Origin: Thermoproteota archaeon
GTDB taxonomy: Archaea; Korarchaeota; Korarchaeia; Korarchaeales; Korarchaeaceae
Direction: 5' to 3'
DNA length: 14,763 nucleotides
Assembly: GCA_003661265.1 (NCBI GenBank)
Contig: QMVU01000004.1
Span: forward strand, 1-14,763
The number at the start of each line of letters is the position of its first letter. Within the stretch, counting starts at the first letter, position 1. Positions 6,364 to 14,763 of the stretch are shown here, in pieces. The position numbers were made by a program, and so were the translations under genes. A model generated the notes under the pieces. It did not search any database, had not been told where the DNA came from, and was given only the letters and a program-made list of their open reading frames with translations.

Positions 6364-7263
6364 TCAGTAGAAGAAAATCCTCCCAGCAGAAATGAGTTTC
6401 CTTACATCGTCCACGAACACATCAACCCCTATGACCTTCGGTAGTTTCAACAGGAAGTCCCTCTCAGTTATTATCCCCTGACCATCACCTACTATCAAGT
6501 GACCTATCCCATGCCTCCTCATCAAGGCGATGGCCTTCCCTACGTCCTCCAGGGGATCTACTGTTACTATCTCCCTTGGGTTCAAGGCTTGGAGAGGGGT
6601 AGCATGAACTTCCTTCACTCTCTTCTCCTTTAGCATGTTAAGCGTCTTCTCGCTTGAGTAAAAGGAGATGAGATCCATTATCGTCAAAATCCCCTTGAGC
6701 CCCGTGGCTGTTTTTAGAACCAGCCTCCTTATGTCATTGGATATCATGACCTTCTGTCCCTCTAAGACGGATGCCTGGGGGGGAAGCGTTATCAAGCAGG
6801 GAGTCATTATCTCTCCAACTCTTACGTGAGTCTCAACGTCGGAAAATAGGGCCATTAGGTGCTTCTCCGATATGACCCCCACGACCCTCCTGTTCTCATC
6901 AACGACTGGAAGAGCTCCTATGTCCCTCTCCATCATTAGATCCACCACATCAACCAGGGAATCGTCAAGCGAGCACCAAGGATATGGAAACATCAGGGAA
7001 TAGGCTGTCTCCTTCTCTAATGCTGTATAGAGATCCATGTTATAATCTTCAACTACCTTCCTGAACTTCTCTCCTCCTCCCATGAAGTTTATGAGGTATT
7101 TGGCGGAGACAACTCCCTCCAGCTTTCCTTCCTCGTCGGCGACTATCGCATGTCTGACCTTCTTCTTATTCATCTCCAGCATTACTTCCAGGAGGCTTGT
7201 CTCAAGTTTAACCACGATAGCCGGAGGATATCTACCAACCCTCAGTTCCCTAAGCGTCTTCAC
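6364..7263 (-). CDS. Protein with four CBS domains
   Basis: The 299 residues consist almost wholly of four CBS motifs: about 8-60, 92-143, 147-203 and 225-275. Typical turns are visible, such as ALPVVDENRRVVGVIS and IGHLIVGDGQGIITERDFL. There is no attached kinase, transporter, nuclease or DNA-binding domain. Stand-alone CBS proteins of archaea usually bind adenine nucleotides (AMP, ATP, sometimes S-adenosylmethionine) as energy sensors; the ligand here is unknown. The start is GTG. It has GGGGGAG a few bases upstream and a TATA-like box 25 nt away, so ribosome site and promoter agree on this start. The gene diverges from mtd, with about 310 bp between the two starts. A role in tuning C1 metabolism is possible but unproven. 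Confidence 0.88.
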   Translation of the reverse strand: MKTLRELRVGRYPPAIVVKLETSLLEVMLEMNKKKVRHAIVADEEGKLEGVVSAKYLINFMGGGEKFRKVVEDYNMDLYTALEKETAYSLMFPYPWCSLDDSLVDVVDLMMERDIGALPVVDENRRVVGVISEKHLMALFSDVETHVRVGEIMTPCLITLPPQASVLEGQKVMISNDIRRLVLKTATGLKGILTIMDLISFYSSEKTLNMLKEKRVKEVHATPLQALNPREIVTVDPLEDVGKAIALMRRHGIGHLIVGDGQGIITERDFLLKLPKVIGVDVFVDDVRKLISAGRIFFY

Positions 7264-7284
7264 GTATCTCCCCCTTATTATTGG

Positions 7285-7292
7285 ATAAAATT
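7285..7292 (-). promoter_or_regulatory. TATA-like box for the CBS protein gene
   Basis: On the minus strand it reads AATTTTAT inside a longer A/T tract. Its centre is about 25 nt before the GTG at 7263, which predicts transcription starting at or next to the start codon. Confidence 0.45.
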
Positions 7293-7540
7293 TTTACAAG
7301 GGCTTTCTCGTGAGACTTAGTGTCCCATACTTTCATTTAACTATTACGTCGCTATGATACAATTCCTAAGGAAGAAGAGAGTTTGCATCCTAAAGACGGT
7401 CTCTCTAACGTGCAACTTAAAGGAATTCGGGGAGATTTTGTTTTTAGATGACGTTCAGCCCGTATCATCGTTCCTTGTAGTTGGATTTTTAAGGGAGCAG
7501 GGATCGAGGTAGCCCCCGCCAGTAGCCCACCTCAGAAACG

Positions 7541-7548
7541 TATTAATC
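7541..7548 (+). promoter_or_regulatory. TATA-like box for mtd
   Basis: TATTAATC is centred about 29 nt upstream of the ATG at 7574 and only 17 nt upstream of the ATG at 7562. If it is used, the upstream ATG would not be in the transcript, which supports the 7574 start. Confidence 0.4.
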
Positions 7549-7573
7549 TTTTCACCAAAGCATGCACAAGGGG

Positions 7574-8416
7574 ATGCCCGTGGTGGTAAGAGTAGGTTTC
7601 GTAAAGCTGGGTAACATAGGTTGCGCCCCCCTCATCGAATTCCTGCTTGATGAGAGGGCGGAGAGGGAGGACATATCAGTAAGGGTCATAGGATGCGGCG
7701 CGAAGATGAATCCGGAGGATGCAGAGGAGATAAGCAAGAAGATGCTTGAGTTCAAACCTGACTTCGTCGTGATAACGAGCCCAAATGCCTCCCTGCCAGG
7801 ACCAACGAAGGCAAGGGAGATATTGGCCCAATCAGTTCCCGTGATAGTGGTTTCAGACCTTCCAGCCAAGAGGATAGTATCGGAGCTTGAAGAAAAGGGA
7901 ATAGGGTACATAATAGTGGAAGCTGACGCGATGTTAGGGGCTAGGAGGGAGTTCCTAGATCCTATAGAGATGGCCCTATTCAACGCGGACCTGATAAAGG
8001 TGCTTTCCATAACCGGGGTGTACAACATATTGTTCGAGAGCATAGACAAGGTTATTGAGGCGATAAAAGAGGGGAAGAAACCGGAGCTACCTAAGATAGT
8101 CGTGAAGGCGAAGAAGGCGATAAAGGCAGCGGGCTTCTCGAATCCTTACGCTGCCTCTAAGGCCATGGCCTCCTTCGAGATAGCGAAGAACGTGGCCGAC
8201 GTCACAGTAACCGCTTGCTTCAAGGAGAAGGATTGGGAGAAGTACACCCTTCTCTGCTCAGCGGCCCATGAGATGATGGCTGAAGCAGCAAAACTTGCCT
8301 CAGAAGCTAGAGAAATCGAGAAGAGCGCGGACAAAGTCCTTAGGAAACCCCATTACGACGACGGGACGATACTGATCAAGAGGGCCTTGATAGAAAAGCC
8401 CTCAAAGCCTGAATAA
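7574..8416 (+). CDS. mtd: F420-dependent methylene-H4MPT dehydrogenase (Mtd)
   Basis: Mtd reversibly oxidises methylene-tetrahydromethanopterin to the methenyl form using F420, in the cytoplasmic C1 pathway of methanogens, Archaeoglobus and relatives. Family signatures run through the whole protein: VGFVKLGNIG near the N-terminus, LLDERAERED, GCGAKMNPED and SPNASLPGPTKARE. The length of 280 residues matches the family (about 276-283). Two starts are possible. The ATG at 7562 gives 284 residues. The ATG at 7574 gives MPVVVRVG, which fits family N-termini better and suits the TATA-like box, so it is chosen. Neither has a properly spaced ribosome site. The gene stands alone on its strand; its 3' end overlaps the MFS gene by 15 bp. 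Mer, the next enzyme of the pathway, is encoded 3 kb away. Confidence 0.95.
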   Translation: MPVVVRVGFVKLGNIGCAPLIEFLLDERAEREDISVRVIGCGAKMNPEDAEEISKKMLEFKPDFVVITSPNASLPGPTKAREILAQSVPVIVVSDLPAKRIVSELEEKGIGYIIVEADAMLGARREFLDPIEMALFNADLIKVLSITGVYNILFESIDKVIEAIKEGKKPELPKIVVKAKKAIKAAGFSNPYAASKAMASFEIAKNVADVTVTACFKEKDWEKYTLLCSAAHEMMAEAAKLASEAREIEKSADKVLRKPHYDDGTILIKRALIEKPSKPE

Positions 8417-9565
8417 AACTTTCCTACCTTTTTCCCTTAGCATTACAGCTAGGAGACCGCCTACTACCAAATTCATGGTTAAGAAGGAGAAGAGGGCTAC
8501 ATATCCTGCCCTATCCAGCAGGTAGCCTCCAAGGCCCGTTCCGAATGAAGCTCCGATGAAGGTGCTGGTATTCTGAACCGCTAGAGCTGAAGCCCTTCTC
8601 TTCTCTGGAACGATCTGCGAAGTTAAAGATATCATAGGAGCTGGTATCATGGCGTTGACGAAGCCAAAAAGGAGAAGGAGTGGAAGTATCGTCCTATGCG
8701 TTGAGAAGTAGGTTAACGCCATCAGGATGGCTGAGGCAAGGGTTATTGAAGAGACCAGAGCCCCCTTATCGAATTTATCTGCAACTACCCCTCCAAAAAC
8801 GTTTCCCAAGAAACCGACTGCTGGGATCAGACTGGAGAGAACTGCAGCTATCTCTATGGATAGGCCTCTCTCCCTTACTAGGAAAAGGGGGAGAAAGGTG
8901 GTGAGTCCCATGGACGAAGCCATGCCTAGAAATGGAACTATGCAGGCGACGAGAAACTTAGGGGAGAAAAATCCTCCGACGATCTTCTGCCCCTTCTCCC
9001 CTTTGTAGTCTTCCTTCAGGACTAGGAAGAAGGCTAGGGCCACTAGAAAACCTGGCAATGCGAGTGCTATGAAGGCAAATCTCCAACCGGCGAGCAAAGC
9101 TAGCGGAACTGAGACCAATGGGGCTATGGCCGTTCCTATCGATGTTCCAGACATGAAAAGCCCTATAGCCTTTCCCCTCCTCTCAGCCGGGAAGGCACTT
9201 GAAATAGTTGCCGTTATGGGAGGGAAATAAGTCCCAGCGAAGAGGCCGAACAATATTCTAAGCATGAGGAACTGCTCGAAGCTCCTCGATAGCCCAATTA
9301 GTAGGGTGGTCAGGGAGAACACGGCTATCCCAAGGGAGACCACCTTGCGAGCACCGTACTTATCGCTGAGATAGCCCGCAGGTATCTGGGCTATCGCATA
9401 GCTGATCATGAAGCCAGACATCAGGAGCCCAGCCTGGGTGTTGCTTATCCCGAGGTCGTCCACTATCATCGGGAGGAGAGGAGGAACCATCATCCTGTGG
9501 ATGTAGCTTATTATCCAACCAGCCAGACCAAGAGCCAGTAAGACCACGCCTTTCCTCATTAACAT
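8402..9565 (-). CDS. Major facilitator superfamily (MFS) transporter
   Basis: The 387-residue protein is almost entirely hydrophobic, with a pattern of about 12 membrane helices. The MFS motif A is plain between helices 2 and 3: GYLSDKYGARK (64-74). A related GGVVADKFDKGA is seen at the start of the second half. The N-terminal half has the GLLMSGFMISYAIAQIPAG pattern of the sugar-phosphate/organic anion:cation and drug antiporter branches. The substrate cannot be told. The ATG overlaps the stop of the CofE-like gene by one base (TGATG), so the two are translationally coupled and probably act in one process. A second ATG two codons in has a better-spaced GGGAG. The 3' end overlaps mtd on the other strand. 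Confidence 0.9.
   Translation of the reverse strand: MLMRKGVVLLALGLAGWIISYIHRMMVPPLLPMIVDDLGISNTQAGLLMSGFMISYAIAQIPAGYLSDKYGARKVVSLGIAVFSLTTLLIGLSRSFEQFLMLRILFGLFAGTYFPPITATISSAFPAERRGKAIGLFMSGTSIGTAIAPLVSVPLALLAGWRFAFIALALPGFLVALAFFLVLKEDYKGEKGQKIVGGFFSPKFLVACIVPFLGMASSMGLTTFLPLFLVRERGLSIEIAAVLSSLIPAVGFLGNVFGGVVADKFDKGALVSSITLASAILMALTYFSTHRTILPLLLLFGFVNAMIPAPMISLTSQIVPEKRRASALAVQNTSTFIGASFGTGLGGYLLDRAGYVALFSFLTMNLVVGGLLAVMLREKGRKVLFRL
8429..8433 (+). terminator. T-run terminator after mtd
   Basis: CCTTTTTCCC begins 11 nt after the mtd stop. It lies inside the 3' end of the convergent MFS gene, so the two transcripts must overlap there. Confidence 0.35.
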
Positions 9566-10425
9566 CAGCTCCCTCTATTGCCTCTCCTTACTTTCAGGAT
9601 CACCAAGGGGCGATGCTTGACTTGCTCCAACATCTCCCAGCTTACGCCTGTAAGAGATGTGCCGAACCTCTCAGCCATGTCCCAGACGGTGGGGCCAGCC
9701 CCGTGACCACGAACTCTGTCAGCTATCTCAGCCATGTCTAACATCTCCTCAACACTCGTCTTGAGCCCGCTTACTGCTATGGGGGTGGATCTCCTCTTAA
9801 GGTTGAGGAGCCTCCCCATCACGTATGCGATCGGGCCTAAGTTCGCGATCCCTCTAATGAGGCTCCCTCTTGGGGCTAAATGGAATGATTTGAGGGAATA
9901 GGTCTTGTCGCTGTCTGTTATCATGACGGCGACCCTTTTTCCCGTCCTCCTTAGTATTTCAGCCCTTATCTCATCAGCTACCTTGTCTGCGTCCCTCAAG
10001 GGGAGGGAAACGAAGGAGTAAGCGACGTTCGATCCGTCTATACCCCCTTCAGATCCGTGCCTTAGAGCTGAGAGGAAGCCAACCTCGTTTATGCAGACCT
10101 GCTTGTGCCTGGCTCCCTCCAGCAGGGGGTAATTCCTAAACCTAATGATATTTTCCCTCTTCATGTGTAGGAGGGGGCCCAACAGATATCCCCAGATAAC
10201 CCTCATCCAAAAGAGGGCCAGAAAATAGGCCAAAAATCCCGGCTTAACTTTGCTCTCATCAACTAGGTTGCCAAGAGCGACCGACAAGGCCTTCTCGGAG
10301 ATCACCAGGATGTCGCCGTCGTCTAGCTTTCCTTCCACCGCGGATAAGATCTCCTCAACGTAGTCGGTCTTAGGCCTCCAGTACTTAGTTCTGATGGCCT
10401 TGGCCCTGAATTTCCCCGATCTCAT
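9565..10425 (-). CDS. CofE-like protein (divergent F420-0:gamma-glutamyl ligase paralogue)
   Basis: The 286 residues show the CofE (F420_ligase) scaffold: DDGDILVISEKALSVALGNLV (35-55), GIDGSN (128-133) and a metal/GTP-site-like VMITDSD (167-173). Authentic CofE adds glutamates to F420-0. Here the usual GRPxRxG element after the TDT motif is replaced by KTYSLKSFHLAP. A very hydrophobic stretch (63-87, with FLAYFLALFWM) has been inserted. The C-terminal part (GHGAGPTVWDMAERFG, 241-255) is well formed and looks functional. It is therefore probably an archaeal CofE paralogue with an unassigned ligase activity, not plain CofE. It is encoded between the CooT-like gene and the MFS gene and coupled to the latter. 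A weak TATA-like box (GCTTAAAG, 10445-10452) sits 23 nt upstream of the ATG. Confidence 0.75.
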   Translation of the reverse strand: MRSGKFRAKAIRTKYWRPKTDYVEEILSAVEGKLDDGDILVISEKALSVALGNLVDESKVKPGFLAYFLALFWMRVIWGYLLGPLLHMKRENIIRFRNYPLLEGARHKQVCINEVGFLSALRHGSEGGIDGSNVAYSFVSLPLRDADKVADEIRAEILRRTGKRVAVMITDSDKTYSLKSFHLAPRGSLIRGIANLGPIAYVMGRLLNLKRRSTPIAVSGLKTSVEEMLDMAEIADRVRGHGAGPTVWDMAERFGTSLTGVSWEMLEQVKHRPLVILKVRRGNRGS

Positions 10426-10483
10426 AGTACTCGCCGTATCTCAGCTTTAAGCGAAAGCCTCTCATCACAATGACTTCTTGGGA

Positions 10484-10819
10484 TTACTTTCTCCTGGAGA
10501 ACTCCTCTATCATGGAGTCCCCTATGGACTTGACCTTCTCCCAAGCCTCCACCAATTCCTCACCGCAGCCCTTACCTCCCCTGCACCTCTCGTAGATCTC
10601 CAGAAATCTGAGGAAATTCCCCAAGATCTTGTGTCTATGTACCTTCAGAACCTCAGAGTCGACGTTAACCTCCCTTATCAGAGCGCCTCCTACGGAAACG
10701 GAATCCCCAAGTATGTCGATGAGTATTAGCTCTCCATCCTTATACGTGGTTCTAATAATGTCCCTGGCAACCTGGTTCTCCTTACCATCCTCATACAGGA
10801 TTACCGTGAATTCGCACAT
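10484..10819 (-). CDS. CooT-like nickel-binding family protein
   Basis: The 111-residue product begins MCEFTVILYEDG and continues with a small beta-barrel pattern (DIIRTTYKDGELILIDILGD, then VGGALIREVNV). This matches the CooT family, in which the Cys right after the initiator Met binds nickel and serves CO dehydrogenase maturation. The core is about 64 residues. A charged helical tail (about 65-111) with Cys79 and Cys85 is extra compared with the short bacterial CooT proteins. The start is well supported, since it creates the MC pair and lies about 26 nt from a TATA-like box. A CooC-like gene occurs 3.3 kb away, which supports a nickel role. Functional assignment is by family resemblance only. 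Confidence 0.7.
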   Translation of the reverse strand: MCEFTVILYEDGKENQVARDIIRTTYKDGELILIDILGDSVSVGGALIREVNVDSEVLKVHRHKILGNFLRFLEIYERCRGGKGCGEELVEAWEKVKSIGDSMIEEFSRRK

Positions 10820-10841
10820 CTCAAGCTGATTATCGTAAGAT

Positions 10842-10849
10842 TTGATAAA
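10842..10849 (-). promoter_or_regulatory. TATA-like box for the CooT-like gene
   Basis: On the minus strand it reads TTTATCAA. Its centre lies about 26 nt before the ATG at 10819, predicting a leaderless transcript for CooT-like, CofE-like and MFS genes. Confidence 0.5.
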
Positions 10850-10883
10850 CCTTCCCTTAAGGAACCTAAAGCAGTCGGGCTAT

Positions 10884-10908
10884 CCCTCCCTCCCCCAACC
10901 CTCCACCC
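10884..10908 (-). other. G-quadruplex-forming motif (five G-runs)
   Basis: The plus strand has C-runs at 10884-10886, 10888-10890, 10892-10896, 10899-10901 and 10906-10908, separated by 1-4 bases. The minus strand therefore carries five runs of at least three G with short loops, more than the four needed for a canonical G-quadruplex. It lies in the divergent region between the CooT-like gene and the mer operon, just before the latter's first ATG. Formation in vivo is not shown by sequence. Confidence 0.6.
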
Positions 10909-10921
10909 GTAACTCCAAGCC

Positions 10922-11272
10922 ATGAAAAATCTTAAATTATTCAATAAGAGCGAATTGGTGGAAATGGAAAGGCTTAAGTCTTTAGATCCGGAATTGAAGC
11001 GCTTTCTGGTAAATCTCGGATCAGAACAGAGATCCTCGTTAAAATGGGACTTACTCGGATACCTCCTCACGTTAAAGCCGAAGGCCTGTGCTGGAGCCCC
11101 TATAGAAAGCGTGAAACTCATGCTGCTGTTCTGGAAATACGACCTTCTGGAGAGTGATGAAGGGCTTGGAACATTGATAGAGATATGCAAGGCCCTGGAT
11201 CCGGGGAAAACAGCTGAAATTTTGGAGAAGAACGGTTTGCATGAGTTAGCTGAGAGGATGAAGGGAGGGTAG
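10922..11272 (+). CDS. Small helical protein of unknown function, coupled to mer
   Basis: I do not recognise this 116-residue protein. It appears all-helical and soluble, with a charged N-terminus, amphipathic segments such as VKLMLLFWKYDLL (64-76) and two cysteines (56 and 89) too far apart for a metal knuckle. There is no signal peptide or membrane segment. The stop is 7 nt before the mer ATG, and its last codons contain the mer ribosome site (AAGGGAGGG at 11261-11269), so it is a real translated gene in the mer operon. No TATA box sits at leaderless distance. A weak CCCTTAAGG (10854-10862) would put the RNA start near 10885 and give a leader rich in C-runs. A regulator or assembly partner for Mer is one guess; nothing in the sequence proves it. 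Confidence 0.75.
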   Translation: MKNLKLFNKSELVEMERLKSLDPELKRFLVNLGSEQRSSLKWDLLGYLLTLKPKACAGAPIESVKLMLLFWKYDLLESDEGLGTLIEICKALDPGKTAEILEKNGLHELAERMKGG

Positions 11273-11279
11273 ATGGGCT

Positions 11280-12281
11280 ATGGTGAGGTTCGGCATCGAG
11301 TTTATCCCCCAGGAGCCCTTCTGGAGAACCGTATTTTACGTAGCTCAGGCTGAAAAAGGAGGTTTTGACAACACCTGGATAACGGATCACTTCATGAACA
11401 GGAATCCCTACACGACGATGGCCGCTATAGCCCTCTACACGGAGAGGATAACCATGGGAGTGGGTGTAACGAACCCATACCTGGTTAACCCGGTTGTAAC
11501 AGCTCAAAACATAGCATCTCTGAGCGAAATGGCCCCGAACAGGGTCATATTGGGGATAGGAGCTGGCGACAAGACCACTCTAGGCCTACTGGGTGTTGAG
11601 ATGAGCTTACCTGTGAGGGCGGTGAGGGAGTGCGTTGAGATAACAAGGACCCTCCTCTCAGGGGAGAAAATCAAGAATTACGAGGGCAAGATATTCAAGA
11701 TTCAGAAGGCTAAGCTTGCCTTCAAGCCAGCTGGCAGGGTACCAATATACGTGGGAGCACAAGGCCCGATGATGCTAAGGTTAGCCGCGAAGATAGGTGA
11801 TGGTGTCCTGATAAACGCGTCTCATCCAGATGATGTTAAGGAAGCAATATCTCACCTTAAGAAGGGAGCGGAGAAAGCAGGCAGAGACCTGAGCGGCTTC
11901 GATGTCGTCGTCTATACCTCCTTCTCGACCCACAAGGACAGGGAGAAAGCTAGGAAAGCGACCCTCCCTGTAGTCGCATTCATAGTGGCGGGATGTCCTC
12001 CAAAGATCCTGGAGAAGCATGGAATATCACTGGAAAAGGCTGAGCAGCTGAAGAAGGCCCTTAACGAAGGCAAGTGGGACGTCGCATTCTCCAGCGTGAC
12101 CGACGAGATGATAGAGGCCTTCTCAATATGCGGAACTCCGGAGGAGTGCTCAGAGAAGATAGCGAAGATGTTCGAGCTTGGAGTAACTCAGTTTGTCGTG
12201 GGCTCCCCAATAGGTCCTAAAGTTTACAAGGCTATAGAGACGATAAGCAAGGAGATAATACCGAGATTCAAGGAAAAATAA
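11280..12281 (+). CDS. mer: F420-dependent methylene-H4MPT reductase (Mer)
   Basis: Mer reduces methylene-tetrahydromethanopterin to methyl-H4MPT with F420H2, or runs in reverse when methyl groups are oxidised. The 333-residue TIM-barrel protein of the bacterial luciferase-like family has Mer-typical stretches: FGIEFIPQ at the N-terminus, TWITDHFMNRN (32-42), MGVGVTNPY, PNRVILGIGAGDK and VPIYVGAQGP. The C-terminal part (CGTPEECSEKI, then QFVVGSPIGP) completes the family pattern. These features separate it from F420-dependent glucose-6-phosphate or secondary alcohol dehydrogenases of the same fold. The purine-rich AAGGGAGGG 10 nt upstream supports the ATG. It is the second gene of a two-gene operon. 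Its 3' end is 12 bp from the convergent MNT gene, with no clear T-run. Confidence 0.95.
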   Translation: MVRFGIEFIPQEPFWRTVFYVAQAEKGGFDNTWITDHFMNRNPYTTMAAIALYTERITMGVGVTNPYLVNPVVTAQNIASLSEMAPNRVILGIGAGDKTTLGLLGVEMSLPVRAVRECVEITRTLLSGEKIKNYEGKIFKIQKAKLAFKPAGRVPIYVGAQGPMMLRLAAKIGDGVLINASHPDDVKEAISHLKKGAEKAGRDLSGFDVVVYTSFSTHKDREKARKATLPVVAFIVAGCPPKILEKHGISLEKAEQLKKALNEGKWDVAFSSVTDEMIEAFSICGTPEECSEKIAKMFELGVTQFVVGSPIGPKVYKAIETISKEIIPRFKEK

Positions 12282-12293
12282 GTGAGTTGGCTC

Positions 12294-12620
12294 TTACACC
12301 TCCAAGAGCTCATCTATGAACCTTAGGTACCATTTCAACTCCCTCTCGTTGACAATGTGGAGCTGAACAGGGACTTCAAGTCCGATCTCTCTTATTACCT
12401 CAACCTTTAGCTTAAGGGCTTCCTCCCTATTCAGATTGCAGACTACGAGGATATCTATGTCGCTACAGGCAGTCACCTTCCCACTGAGGACAGAGCCGAA
12501 GACATATATCCTTGCATCGCACCTCCGAAGCACTAATTTCTTAACCCTTTCAGCGATTTCTCTGTACCTTCTTAAGAGCGCTAGATCCTTTTTTCCCTCC
12601 TTCACGTACAACTTAAACAC
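12294..12620 (-). CDS. MNT-type minimal nucleotidyltransferase (antitoxin)
   Basis: The 108-residue protein is a minimal nucleotidyltransferase. Gly42-Ser43 followed by exactly ten residues and Asp54-x-Asp56 gives the GSX10DXD motif of MntA-type antitoxins, which AMPylate and silence their HEPN partner. The third carboxylate usually found in a later strand is not obvious; that region reads VQLHIVN. The gene starts with GTG and overlaps the end of the HEPN gene by 8 nt, the usual arrangement of such pairs. It is convergent with mer. The neutralising role is inferred from family and pairing. Confidence 0.85.
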   Translation of the reverse strand: MFKLYVKEGKKDLALLRRYREIAERVKKLVLRRCDARIYVFGSVLSGKVTACSDIDILVVCNLNREEALKLKVEVIREIGLEVPVQLHIVNERELKWYLRFIDELLEV

Positions 12621-12993
12621 TCTCCAGCTCCTCCCTGAATCTCTCCGCGAAGGAAATTAATTCCTCTACCTCTCTCCTCTCATACCTCCTCGGAAGGTAC
12701 CTTGCAGCTATGTATGCGTCTTCAAGCCTCGTGAGGAACATGATCTCCCTATCTATGAATGATAGGAGATTAATTTCAGTAACCTCGTCCAGGAGCCTTA
12801 ATAGCCTCACTAACGAGTGAGTTCTGGGGTAGGTTCCTGTTCTCACAAGAAGTTTGTATTTGACGAATAACTGACAGAACTGCTCAATGCAAAAGGCGGC
12901 TATATCATAATCTCCCTCTTCAAAGAGTCTTCTTGCATTTCTCAAGAATGAATAAGCTCTTTCCCTGATTATCTCTGCCTCTTCGCTTGACAA
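12613..12993 (-). CDS. HEPN domain protein (toxin of HEPN/MNT pair)
   Basis: The 126 residues form the all-helical HEPN fold of the archaeal type. An early helix carries ARRLFEEGDYDIAAFCIEQ. The central motif RTGTYPRTHSL (51-61) places Arg51, Arg57 and His59, which correspond to the RNase site of this family. The late helix ends DAYIAARYLPRRYER, another hallmark. In HEPN/MNT modules this protein is the ribonuclease toxin. The start is TTG at 12993 with no ribosome site, but a TATA-like box 25 nt away predicts a leaderless message starting there. Its partner follows with an 8-nt overlap. The pair sits between mer and the FrhB-like gene, so it may have been inserted into the C1 gene group. Confidence 0.85.
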   Translation of the reverse strand: MSSEEAEIIRERAYSFLRNARRLFEEGDYDIAAFCIEQFCQLFVKYKLLVRTGTYPRTHSLVRLLRLLDEVTEINLLSFIDREIMFLTRLEDAYIAARYLPRRYERREVEELISFAERFREELESV

Positions 12994-13090: not shown

Positions 13091-14071
13091 TTACGTTAGC
13101 GGAAGCTCCTTCTCAAGCCTCTTCTTCTTTAGGGAGATGAACTTTAGGATGAAGGACTTTGAGTCTTCGCTTAACTCCCTAACCTCTAGGAGACCGGAGG
13201 TAACAGCCCTATCCAACAGATCCTTAGCTTCCTGACTCCTGACTATGATCGTTGACCAGCCCTCATCGGATCCTATGCTTCCAACCGACAGGTCCGCAGA
13301 TTCTGCAGCAAAATCGCCGCAGAAGTGGCAGGATCTCCTGGCGTATTCCTTAGTCTCCTTGATTTTGATCCCATGAATCCCGCCATCTCTAAGCTTCACG
13401 GAGAACTTCCCGTGCTTTATCTCAGATCTTATGACGGAGGAGGGATCTACGCTCATCTTATCCCTCAGCATCTCACAGAACTTGGTATATGGATAGCTTT
13501 CCGTGCAGAAGAGGCCGATGACCAGTTTAATGGGTCTAGCATATCTAGGAGCTTTCTTCCTCATGAATTGGATGGCCCTCACCTGACATGGTACACCCAC
13601 GACGGCTACGGACTCGTACTTGTCAACGACCTGCCTTAACGCAGAGAGGCTTGGACATGAAACGTACTTAGACCCAGCGGATGAGATCAAGTCCTGCTCA
13701 GTTAAAGCTACCATGGGCTCCGGCCTCAGCGGTTCTTCGCTGAACTTGCATACGACTGCCGCTTCTATCATGCCCTCCCTCAAGGCTTGAATGAGCAACG
13801 TCGTGACGACTCCCCCATCCTGGGCAACCCTTGCTACATCTTCCATCAGGCTCCTTCCTGTGTAATAAGCTATGACTGGACCTTCTTCAACTCCCCTATT
13901 CATCACTGGGCAAACGAAGGTGCACAGCTTGCACTCAATGCACTTCTCAGAATCATAGAGGGGCTCATCTGCGTCTGGAGTGACAGCCTCTTTCGGACAT
14001 ACCGTTATACAAGCCCCACAGTACGCACAAAGACCGGACTCTATGATCCTGCCAACAGACTTTAGCTCCAT
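13091..14071 (-). CDS. Ferredoxin-FrhB type F420 oxidoreductase subunit (FpoF/FqoF-like)
   Basis: The 326-residue protein joins a two-cluster ferredoxin domain to FrhB N- and C-terminal domains. Cluster ligands are Cys15, 18, 21, 25 and Cys44, 47, 50, 54 in two CxxCxxCxxxCP motifs. The FrhB part shows VGVPCQVRAIQF, GLFCTES and CHFCGDF...ADLSVG, the region binding flavin and a further cluster. Such proteins oxidise F420H2 and pass electrons to iron-sulfur partners (the F420H2 dehydrogenase input module, hydrogenases, sulfite or glutamate enzymes). No such partner is next to it. Start choice: a TTG at 14095 would lie inside the TATA-like box, so the ATG at 14071, about 26 nt from that box, is preferred. 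CooC lies 94 bp upstream on the same strand. Confidence 0.88.
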   Translation of the reverse strand: MELKSVGRIIESGLCAYCGACITVCPKEAVTPDADEPLYDSEKCIECKLCTFVCPVMNRGVEEGPVIAYYTGRSLMEDVARVAQDGGVVTTLLIQALREGMIEAAVVCKFSEEPLRPEPMVALTEQDLISSAGSKYVSCPSLSALRQVVDKYESVAVVGVPCQVRAIQFMRKKAPRYARPIKLVIGLFCTESYPYTKFCEMLRDKMSVDPSSVIRSEIKHGKFSVKLRDGGIHGIKIKETKEYARRSCHFCGDFAAESADLSVGSIGSDEGWSTIIVRSQEAKDLLDRAVTSGLLEVRELSEDSKSFILKFISLKKKRLEKELPLT

Positions 14072-14092
14072 CAGGGCAGCCCATAACGTGAA

Positions 14093-14100
14093 CAATTTAA
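14093..14100 (-). promoter_or_regulatory. TATA-like box for the FrhB-like gene
   Basis: On the minus strand it reads TTAAATTG, preceded by CCC. Its centre is 26 nt before the ATG at 14071, predicting a leaderless message. This suggests the gene has its own promoter although CooC is just upstream. Confidence 0.5.
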
Positions 14101-14165: not shown

Positions 14166-14763
14166 TCAGCTTAGTAAACCAATCCTCCTAGCGATATTCT
14201 CAGCTGCCTTCAGCGCCGGAGAATCCATTGGAAGCTCAAGAATGGGCCTTCCCTCGATGTTAAACTTGACAACGTTAGGATCTGTTGGGATGGAGCCAGC
14301 GAAACCCACACCCATCTCTTTAGCCTTCTCCTCGAGCATAGGGACAAGTTCCTCCGGAAACCTGTTCCCTACCAGATATATCTCCTTAACCTCTATGTGA
14401 ACCTCATGTGCAAGCTCCTTTATCCTCTCAGCCGTCTTGAACCCCATCTTAGATGGGTCTGTGACGATAAGCAAGATGTCCACATCCCTATCCGTCCTCC
14501 TGCTTAGGTGCTCCAGCCCAGCCTCCATGTCCATGATGGTGACGTCATAGTTCCCGGTAATAGCATCCAGTATCCTCGTGAGGACGCTATTCACGTAGCA
14601 GTAACATCCCTCTCCCTCCGTTCTCCCCATTACCAACAGGTCATACTCAGGGAGCTCGACTAACGTCTCGAAGACCCAAGCTTCAAGTAAATCAGCTTTA
14701 GAGATTCCAATAGGAAGAGATCCTTTCTCTATCTTTTTCTTTAGCTCAGTTGCCACGATTCCA
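14166..14763 (-). CDS. cooC: CooC-type nickel-insertion ATPase (5' partial)
   Basis: The frame runs off the right edge, so about 60 N-terminal residues, including the P-loop, are outside the window; the GTG at 14756 is not the real start. The visible 198 residues match CooC: the metal-binding CxC pair (Cys53, Cys55) in GEGCYCY, the switch region DMEAGLEHLSRRT (78-90), LLIVTDPSK and the base-recognition VGNRF. CooC is a SIMIBI-class dimeric ATPase that helps place nickel in the active cluster of CO dehydrogenase. In archaea with CODH/acetyl-CoA synthase its gene commonly lies near that complex, which would be expected beyond the right edge. The FrhB-like gene follows on the same strand. Confidence 0.88.
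   Translation of the reverse strand, partial: GIVATELKKKIEKGSLPIGISKADLLEAWVFETLVELPEYDLLVMGRTEGEGCYCYVNSVLTRILDAITGNYDVTIMDMEAGLEHLSRRTDRDVDILLIVTDPSKMGFKTAERIKELAHEVHIEVKEIYLVGNRFPEELVPMLEEKAKEMGVGFAGSIPTDPNVVKFNIEGRPILELPMDSPALKAAENIARRIGLLS

Follow-up and report, generated by a model that had tools for sequence, protein, structure and literature searches.

The 14,763-nucleotide contig QMVU01000004.1 of a Thermoproteota archaeon (Korarchaeaceae), analysed whole and hereafter called the window (G000:C4; G, C and L numbers denote our genomes, contigs and loci), raises the question of what a relative of the F420-0:γ-glutamyl ligase CofE does between genes of the tetrahydromethanopterin (H4MPT) pathway. 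The CofE-like gene stands on the minus strand together with a CooT-like gene and a major facilitator superfamily (MFS) gene, with a divergent mer on one side and a convergent mtd on the other. Our analysis makes the CofE-like gene a good candidate for the γ-glutamyl ligase of a one-carbon (C1) carrier, methanofuran first, and leaves the trio as a system unsupported. In archaeal methanogenesis, as in the archaeal version of the Wood-Ljungdahl pathway, CO2 is taken up by methanofuran, and a 2021 paper, in the excerpt drawn on here, describes the enzymes that add further glutamates to it as unidentified (PMC8141765). The widespread CofE-like gene is a concrete candidate for this step. Several metagenome-assembled genomes carry it under the annotation coenzyme F420-0:L-glutamate ligase, and this label, if wrong, would misdirect attempts to reconstruct F420 metabolism.

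A relative of CofE with its own invariant residues

The gene at issue is as follows.

9565-10425, minus strand: CofE-like protein of 286 amino acids (PF01996, 77.4 bits against a cut-off of 25)

The protein keeps the CofE fold and belongs to a large family of 2732 proteins at an E-value of 1e-3, a number that possibly includes distant members. Residues D130, N133 and D171 are 100% conserved in 59 CofE-like and 7 CofE sequences, and the aspartates among them are metal ligands in CofE. In addition, the CofE-like proteins have invariant residues of their own, including W78, H107, K108, E126, D173, T214-P215, W263, H271 and P273. Compared to CofE of Archaeoglobus fulgidus (PDB 2PHN, 7ULD), the CofE-like protein thus shares the PF01996 family, the fold and the three residues, but differs in these further invariant residues, in its gene neighbours and in reaching 55.9 of the 180.65 bits demanded by the CofE equivalog TIGR01916. 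It also coexists with true-scoring CofE genes, as two others in the window genome pass TIGR01916 with 296.7 and 265.6 bits. These two genes lie at G000:C20:4155-4805 and G000:C27:4187-4840, and occur in addition to the CofE-like gene in an incomplete genome. PF01996 also matched in Methanocaldococcus jannaschii and Methanosarcina acetivorans, a count that includes CofE itself.

The original prediction, made from the sequence alone, had proposed that a pathway cofactor may be glutamylated, and this part fits the fold and residues of the CofE-like protein. F420, an acceptor it suggested, is a weaker prospect than its wording implied, given the two other genes that pass the CofE equivalog.

Co-occurrence and gene order with the C1-carrier pathway

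We surveyed the phylum of the window (29 genomes), the class around a Nitrososphaeria genome (200 genomes, one of them named Geothermarchaeota) and the class around a Bathyarchaeota genome (151 genomes), calling the CofE-like gene at an E-value of 1e-15, a threshold at which divergent members may be missed. The group names follow record titles and protein names. The gene was found in 5/29, 6/200 and 106/151 genomes, respectively, and mch in 9/29, 7/200 and 106/151. Carriers also have mch in 5/5, 6/6 and 92/106 cases. Within the Nitrososphaeria class, the gene is present in six of the seven mch-positive genomes and in none of the 193 others. FTR was found in 112 of the 151 Bathyarchaeota-class genomes, and the CofE-like gene accompanies it in 101/112, compared to 5/39 genomes without FTR. 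Among the 45 genomes of this class without mch, the same comparison gives 11/11 against 3/34. The CofE-like gene is missing from all 10 FTR-negative genomes listed at 1.8 Mb or more. In the phylum of the window, three of the five carriers have an FTR match. Fisher values quoted here ignore shared ancestry. Overall, the CofE-like gene tracks the methanofuran/H4MPT pathway and not F420. As far as tested, it was not found to be common in organisms lacking both F420 and carbon monoxide dehydrogenase (CODH), which was not scanned genome by genome.

Gene neighbourhoods were annotated in 65 stretches with a CofE-like gene, from 63 genomes out of the 117 carriers found. Neighbours were called by tblastn (E-value 1e-6) from no more than a few reference proteins per gene, and genes can therefore be missed; the 13 stretches L153-L165 had been picked for a nearby FTR, MfnF or mch. 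In four loci of two classes (L006, L048, L050 and L155), mfnE lies directly before the CofE-like gene. L006 and L050 share the order fwdC-mch-mptN-cofE-(HisAF, opposite strand)-mfnD-mfnF-mfnE-CofEL, where CofEL is the CofE-like gene; L048 has mfnD-mfnF-(one gene)-mfnE-CofEL, and L155, which belongs to the other class, has mfnF-mfnE-CofEL. In L153, mfnF adjoins the CofE-like gene on the other strand. The MfnF model TIGR03123 was over its cut-off in L006, L048, L155 and the L153 place, and NF040622 and NF040623 matched below theirs. Altogether, an mfn gene stands beside the CofE-like gene in 5/65 stretches (mfnE in four, mfnF in L153), which is not most loci.

Other loci place the gene among further pathway genes. 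In L154 and L156, ftr adjoins it on the other strand, with mtd next. L157-L160 carry, in this order and on mixed strands, cdh, CooC, mptN, CofEL, CitG, nucleotidyltransferase, ftr and mtd, with fwdA further along in L158-L160 and mch in L159 and L160. L121, L161 and L162 have RACo-CooC-CooC-CofEL on one strand and genes for a DHPS-like protein, mptG, DUF447 and a nucleotidyltransferase on the other, followed by CitG and mch. Moreover, cdh genes lie upstream of the CofE-like gene in L083, L108, L110-L112, L114, L115 and L164. A separate survey of distances from FTR and mch used one FTR place from each of 80 of the 112 FTR-positive genomes, together with 19 mch places that had been chosen beforehand, by eye, where contigs were shared; it serves as a lead, not as a statistic. 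The tie to the H4MPT, methanofuran and CODH pathway that had been predicted for all three window genes is supported for the CofE-like gene, by its phyletic pattern and its gene order in three archaeal groups.

Two families recur in these neighbourhoods. An unassigned nucleotidyltransferase-like family of ~350 residues (weak PF01909 matches in the two members tested) turns up in the vicinity of the CofE-like gene, mch and ftr; the window genome has two copies beside mch (L144:5636-6679 and 6695-7684), and others are in L029, L031, L051, L052, L121 and L157-L163. A CitG-like protein (PF01874 in one member tested) is encoded near the CofE-like gene in L029-L031, L104, L109, L119, L121, L122 and L157-L163. 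Both families are candidates for unassigned steps of methanofuran or H4MPT synthesis.

Methanofuran as the likely acceptor, and its competitors

We infer, with confidence that is evenly balanced, that the CofE-like protein is a GTP- and metal-dependent γ-glutamyl ligase of a Wood-Ljungdahl C1 carrier, most likely methanofuran. It would have left F420 and would now add γ-linked glutamate to the carrier, acting after MfnF makes the APMF-Glu core of methanofuran. By analogy with CofE, GTP would phosphorylate the terminal carboxylate of the acceptor to an acyl phosphate, which the amine of L-glutamate would attack with loss of phosphate, and the cycle may repeat. The broader proposal is plausible but falls somewhat short of even confidence: the family might be the missing methanofuran γ-glutamyl ligase of Bathyarchaeia, Korarchaeia and related archaea, recruited from F420, standing downstream of mfnF-mfnE in some operons and within the Wood-Ljungdahl supercluster in others, and labelled an F420 enzyme in databases. 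Methanofuran is favoured by the adjacency to mfnE in two classes, the adjacency to ftr and the FTR pattern in genomes without mch.

The job proposed here, lengthening the glutamate chain on a furan C1 carrier, resembles that of MyfA and MyfB, the glutamate ligases of bacterial methylofuran. However, these are bacterial and are described in the excerpt of PMC8141765 as ATP-grasp enzymes, with a fold other than that of PF01996.

A number of observations weigh against the assignment to methanofuran. MfnF (TIGR03123) was found in only 41 of the 151 Bathyarchaeota-class genomes, and the CofE-like gene is present in 38 of these 41 but also in 68 of the 110 MfnF-negative genomes; among genomes with mch, MfnF adds nothing to the association (p 0.37). 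No FTR match was found in the window genome, which is 71% complete, or in G022. Pathway genes also occur without the CofE-like gene: G001, G002 and G004 have both mch and FTR, G003 has mch, G222 has mch, mptN-like and mfnD-like genes, and 11 FTR-positive genomes of the Bathyarchaeota class lack a match. Conversely, G279, G315 and G324 carry the CofE-like gene with no FTR or mch match, that of G279 lying on a 1.19-Mb contig (G279:C1:979373-980197, L103). An unselected count of 40 loci, one from each of 40 of the 106 Bathyarchaeota-class carriers, picked by score and contig size and spanning ~8 kb on each side or less at contig ends, found a core pathway gene in 9 stretches and none in 31; L005, outside this count, is also without one. 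Many neighbours of the CofE-like gene lie on the opposite strand. The names MfnD, MfnE and MptN are best matches under the equivalog cut-offs, TIGR03123 alone having passed. Our tests do not cleanly separate methanofuran from H4MPT. Finally, the neighbours mtd, mer, mch, mptN, mptG, the pterin-binding DHPS-like gene and cdhD/cdhE serve H4MPT synthesis or use, and in genomes without MfnF, mch is found in 57/68 CofE-like carriers compared to 11/42 non-carriers (p 1.6e-9).

These last two points favour an unlikely but serious competitor, in which H4MPT or a relative of it receives glutamate from the CofE-like protein, much as folate does from folylpolyglutamate synthase; the product would be a γ-glutamyl variant of H4MPT beside the α-glutamate added by MptN. 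The MfnF counts of the Bathyarchaeota class and the presence of thyX in 5 of the 40 unselected loci also count for this explanation, as does a chlamydial CofE homologue that acts in place of folC in the excerpt of PMC1971073. The chlamydial protein resembles ours as a member of the CofE family serving a C1 carrier instead of F420, but it is bacterial, works in the folate pathway and is likened here by its description, not its sequence; the window protein does not reach TIGR04132, a putative folate γ-glutamate ligase model (15.3 of 350 bits). Against H4MPT stand the mfnE adjacency in four loci with mfnF or FTR adjacency in three more, and the fact that in Bathyarchaeota-class genomes without mch the CofE-like gene still follows FTR. 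In addition, the characterised archaeal addition of glutamate to H4MPT is α-linked, by MptN, according to the excerpt of PMC8141765. We rank methanofuran ahead of H4MPT because its known gap needs γ-glutamate addition and the bond made by MptN is α. As a separate observation, thyX adjoins the CofE-like gene or lies one small open reading frame away in L089, L092, L093, L095 and L099, all of the Bathyarchaeota class (one tested as ThyX).

It is rather improbable that the protein is an F420 ligase extending or varying the γ-glutamyl tail of the F420 that serves Mtd, Mer and the FrhB-like protein. The CofE family and fold and the flanking mtd and mer, which encode F420 enzymes, would suit such a role; however, the window genome has two CofE genes that pass the equivalog while the CofE-like protein falls far below it, and the mfnE and fwd/ftr neighbours are not F420 genes. 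Thaumarchaeota commonly have F420, according to the excerpt of PMC8498797, and 194 of the 200 Nitrososphaeria-class genomes gave no CofE-like match (the class was not scanned for CofE), which argues against an F420 role.

We consider it still less probable that the CofE-like protein acts on another pathway-bound molecule, such as an unknown peptide or a nucleotide of the nickel-pincer type. This would agree with the recurrence of the unassigned nucleotidyltransferase and CitG-like protein and with LarE adjoining the gene or standing one gene away in L029, L030, L031 and L052, the last of which also has LarC; yet LarE or LarC is present in only 4/65 stretches. These nickel-pincer cofactor genes lie at L052:7042-9112, and the identity of LarE was tested in L031 and that of LarC in L052.

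CooT, MFS and the remaining genes of the window

The other features of the window are the following.

7562-8416, plus strand: mtd, F420-dependent methylene-H4MPT dehydrogenase (PF01993, 409.5 bits; NF002162, 410.5 bits against a cut-off of 297)
8402-9565, minus strand: MFS transporter of 387 amino acids (PF07690, 231.1 bits)
9563-9567, minus strand: TGATG, a one-base overlap of the CofE-like stop and the MFS start (base 9565 common to both)
10484-10819, minus strand: CooT-like protein of 111 amino acids (PF10133, 42.1 bits against a cut-off of 27, residues 1-55)
10922-11272, plus strand: protein of 116 amino acids with no family, directly 5' of mer (92% identity over 102 residues in L004)
11280-12281, plus strand: mer, methylene-H4MPT reductase (TIGR03555, 421.6 bits against a cut-off of 348.7)
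13091-14095, minus strand: FrhB/FpoF-like F420 oxidoreductase subunit (PF04432, 154.9 bits; best NCBIfam match 251.6 of 269 bits)
14166-14762, minus strand: CooC-like ATPase truncated by the contig end (PF10609, 27.4 against 27.1 bits; an 85% identical stretch in L004)

Gene calls and Pfam and NCBIfam matches bear out the original description of CooT-like, CofE-like and MFS genes in this order on one strand between mtd and mer, and the overlap at base 9565 is likewise real; the minus strand across this junction reads ...CTGATGTTA.... The same order between mer and mtd recurs in a sister genome, so the arrangement is no mere accident of one genome. The sister contig, L004 (QMVZ01000002.1), is evidently identical to L032 of G028, as the two agree in length (36,060) and coordinates. 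Identities between the window and the sister are 63% for CooT, 74% for CofE-like, 81% for MFS and 92% for mtd and mer. In the sister contig, 31 bases separate the end of the CofE-like gene (7438) from the start of MFS (7470), so the overlap is lost.

The proposal that the three genes jointly produce, glutamylate and transport a single cofactor or nickel ligand is very improbable: the shared strand, the overlap and the order kept in the sister speak for it, but the overlap is lost there, the trio occurs in only 2/65 annotated stretches (the window and its sister, close to the single-genome occurrence that the prediction itself had named as its refutation), a database search with the CooT-like protein gave four proteins, its own included, at limited sensitivity, and the MFS protein has no specific family among the matches listed. 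A nickel ligand made by the trio finds no support. Taken singly, the CooT-like gene was seen in the same two stretches, and an MFS match in these and L110, where it lies ~4 kb from the CofE-like gene on the opposite strand. Of the 85 NCBIfam models that matched the MFS protein, none of the 25 listed reached its cut-off. Our best reading is that CooT and MFS are local neighbours and not components of the ligase system.

The CooT-like protein resembles CooT of CODH maturation in matching PF10133 over the cut-off and in starting with MCEF, which gives a cysteine at position 2, the residue implicated in nickel binding in the excerpt of PMC6006190; it differs by a C-terminal extension. On L032, the sister contig, mer is preceded by cdhE, RACo and a CooC-like gene, and the FrhB-like gene and mer stand between this block and CooT. 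From this arrangement and the sequence likeness, the CooT-like protein is probably a nickel protein serving the neighbouring cdhE-RACo-CooC block of CODH/acetyl-CoA synthase. PF10133 was found in 15 of the 29 genomes of the phylum, and a second match occurs elsewhere in the window genome in an open frame of 64 amino acids. The CooC-like gene of the window is named from its position beside cdh genes in relatives, as no CooC model matched it.

Matches to fwdA, fwdC and mch lie on a different contig of the window genome, and the sister additionally has mptN, ftr, cdhD and cdhE. A near protein relative (P0007) is named Candidatus Korarchaeota, and a Wood-Ljungdahl pathway in marine Korarchaeia has already been described, as the excerpt of PMC10667645 states. 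The 116-residue protein before mer gave no Pfam match at an E-value of 0.1 and no NCBIfam match at 0.01.

A nucleotidyltransferase-HEPN pair (PF01909, PF05168; window 12294-12993) separates mer from the FrhB-like gene; pairs of this kind are known as toxin-antitoxin modules. The pair was not found in the sister, in which only ~130 bases lie between mer and the FrhB-like gene.

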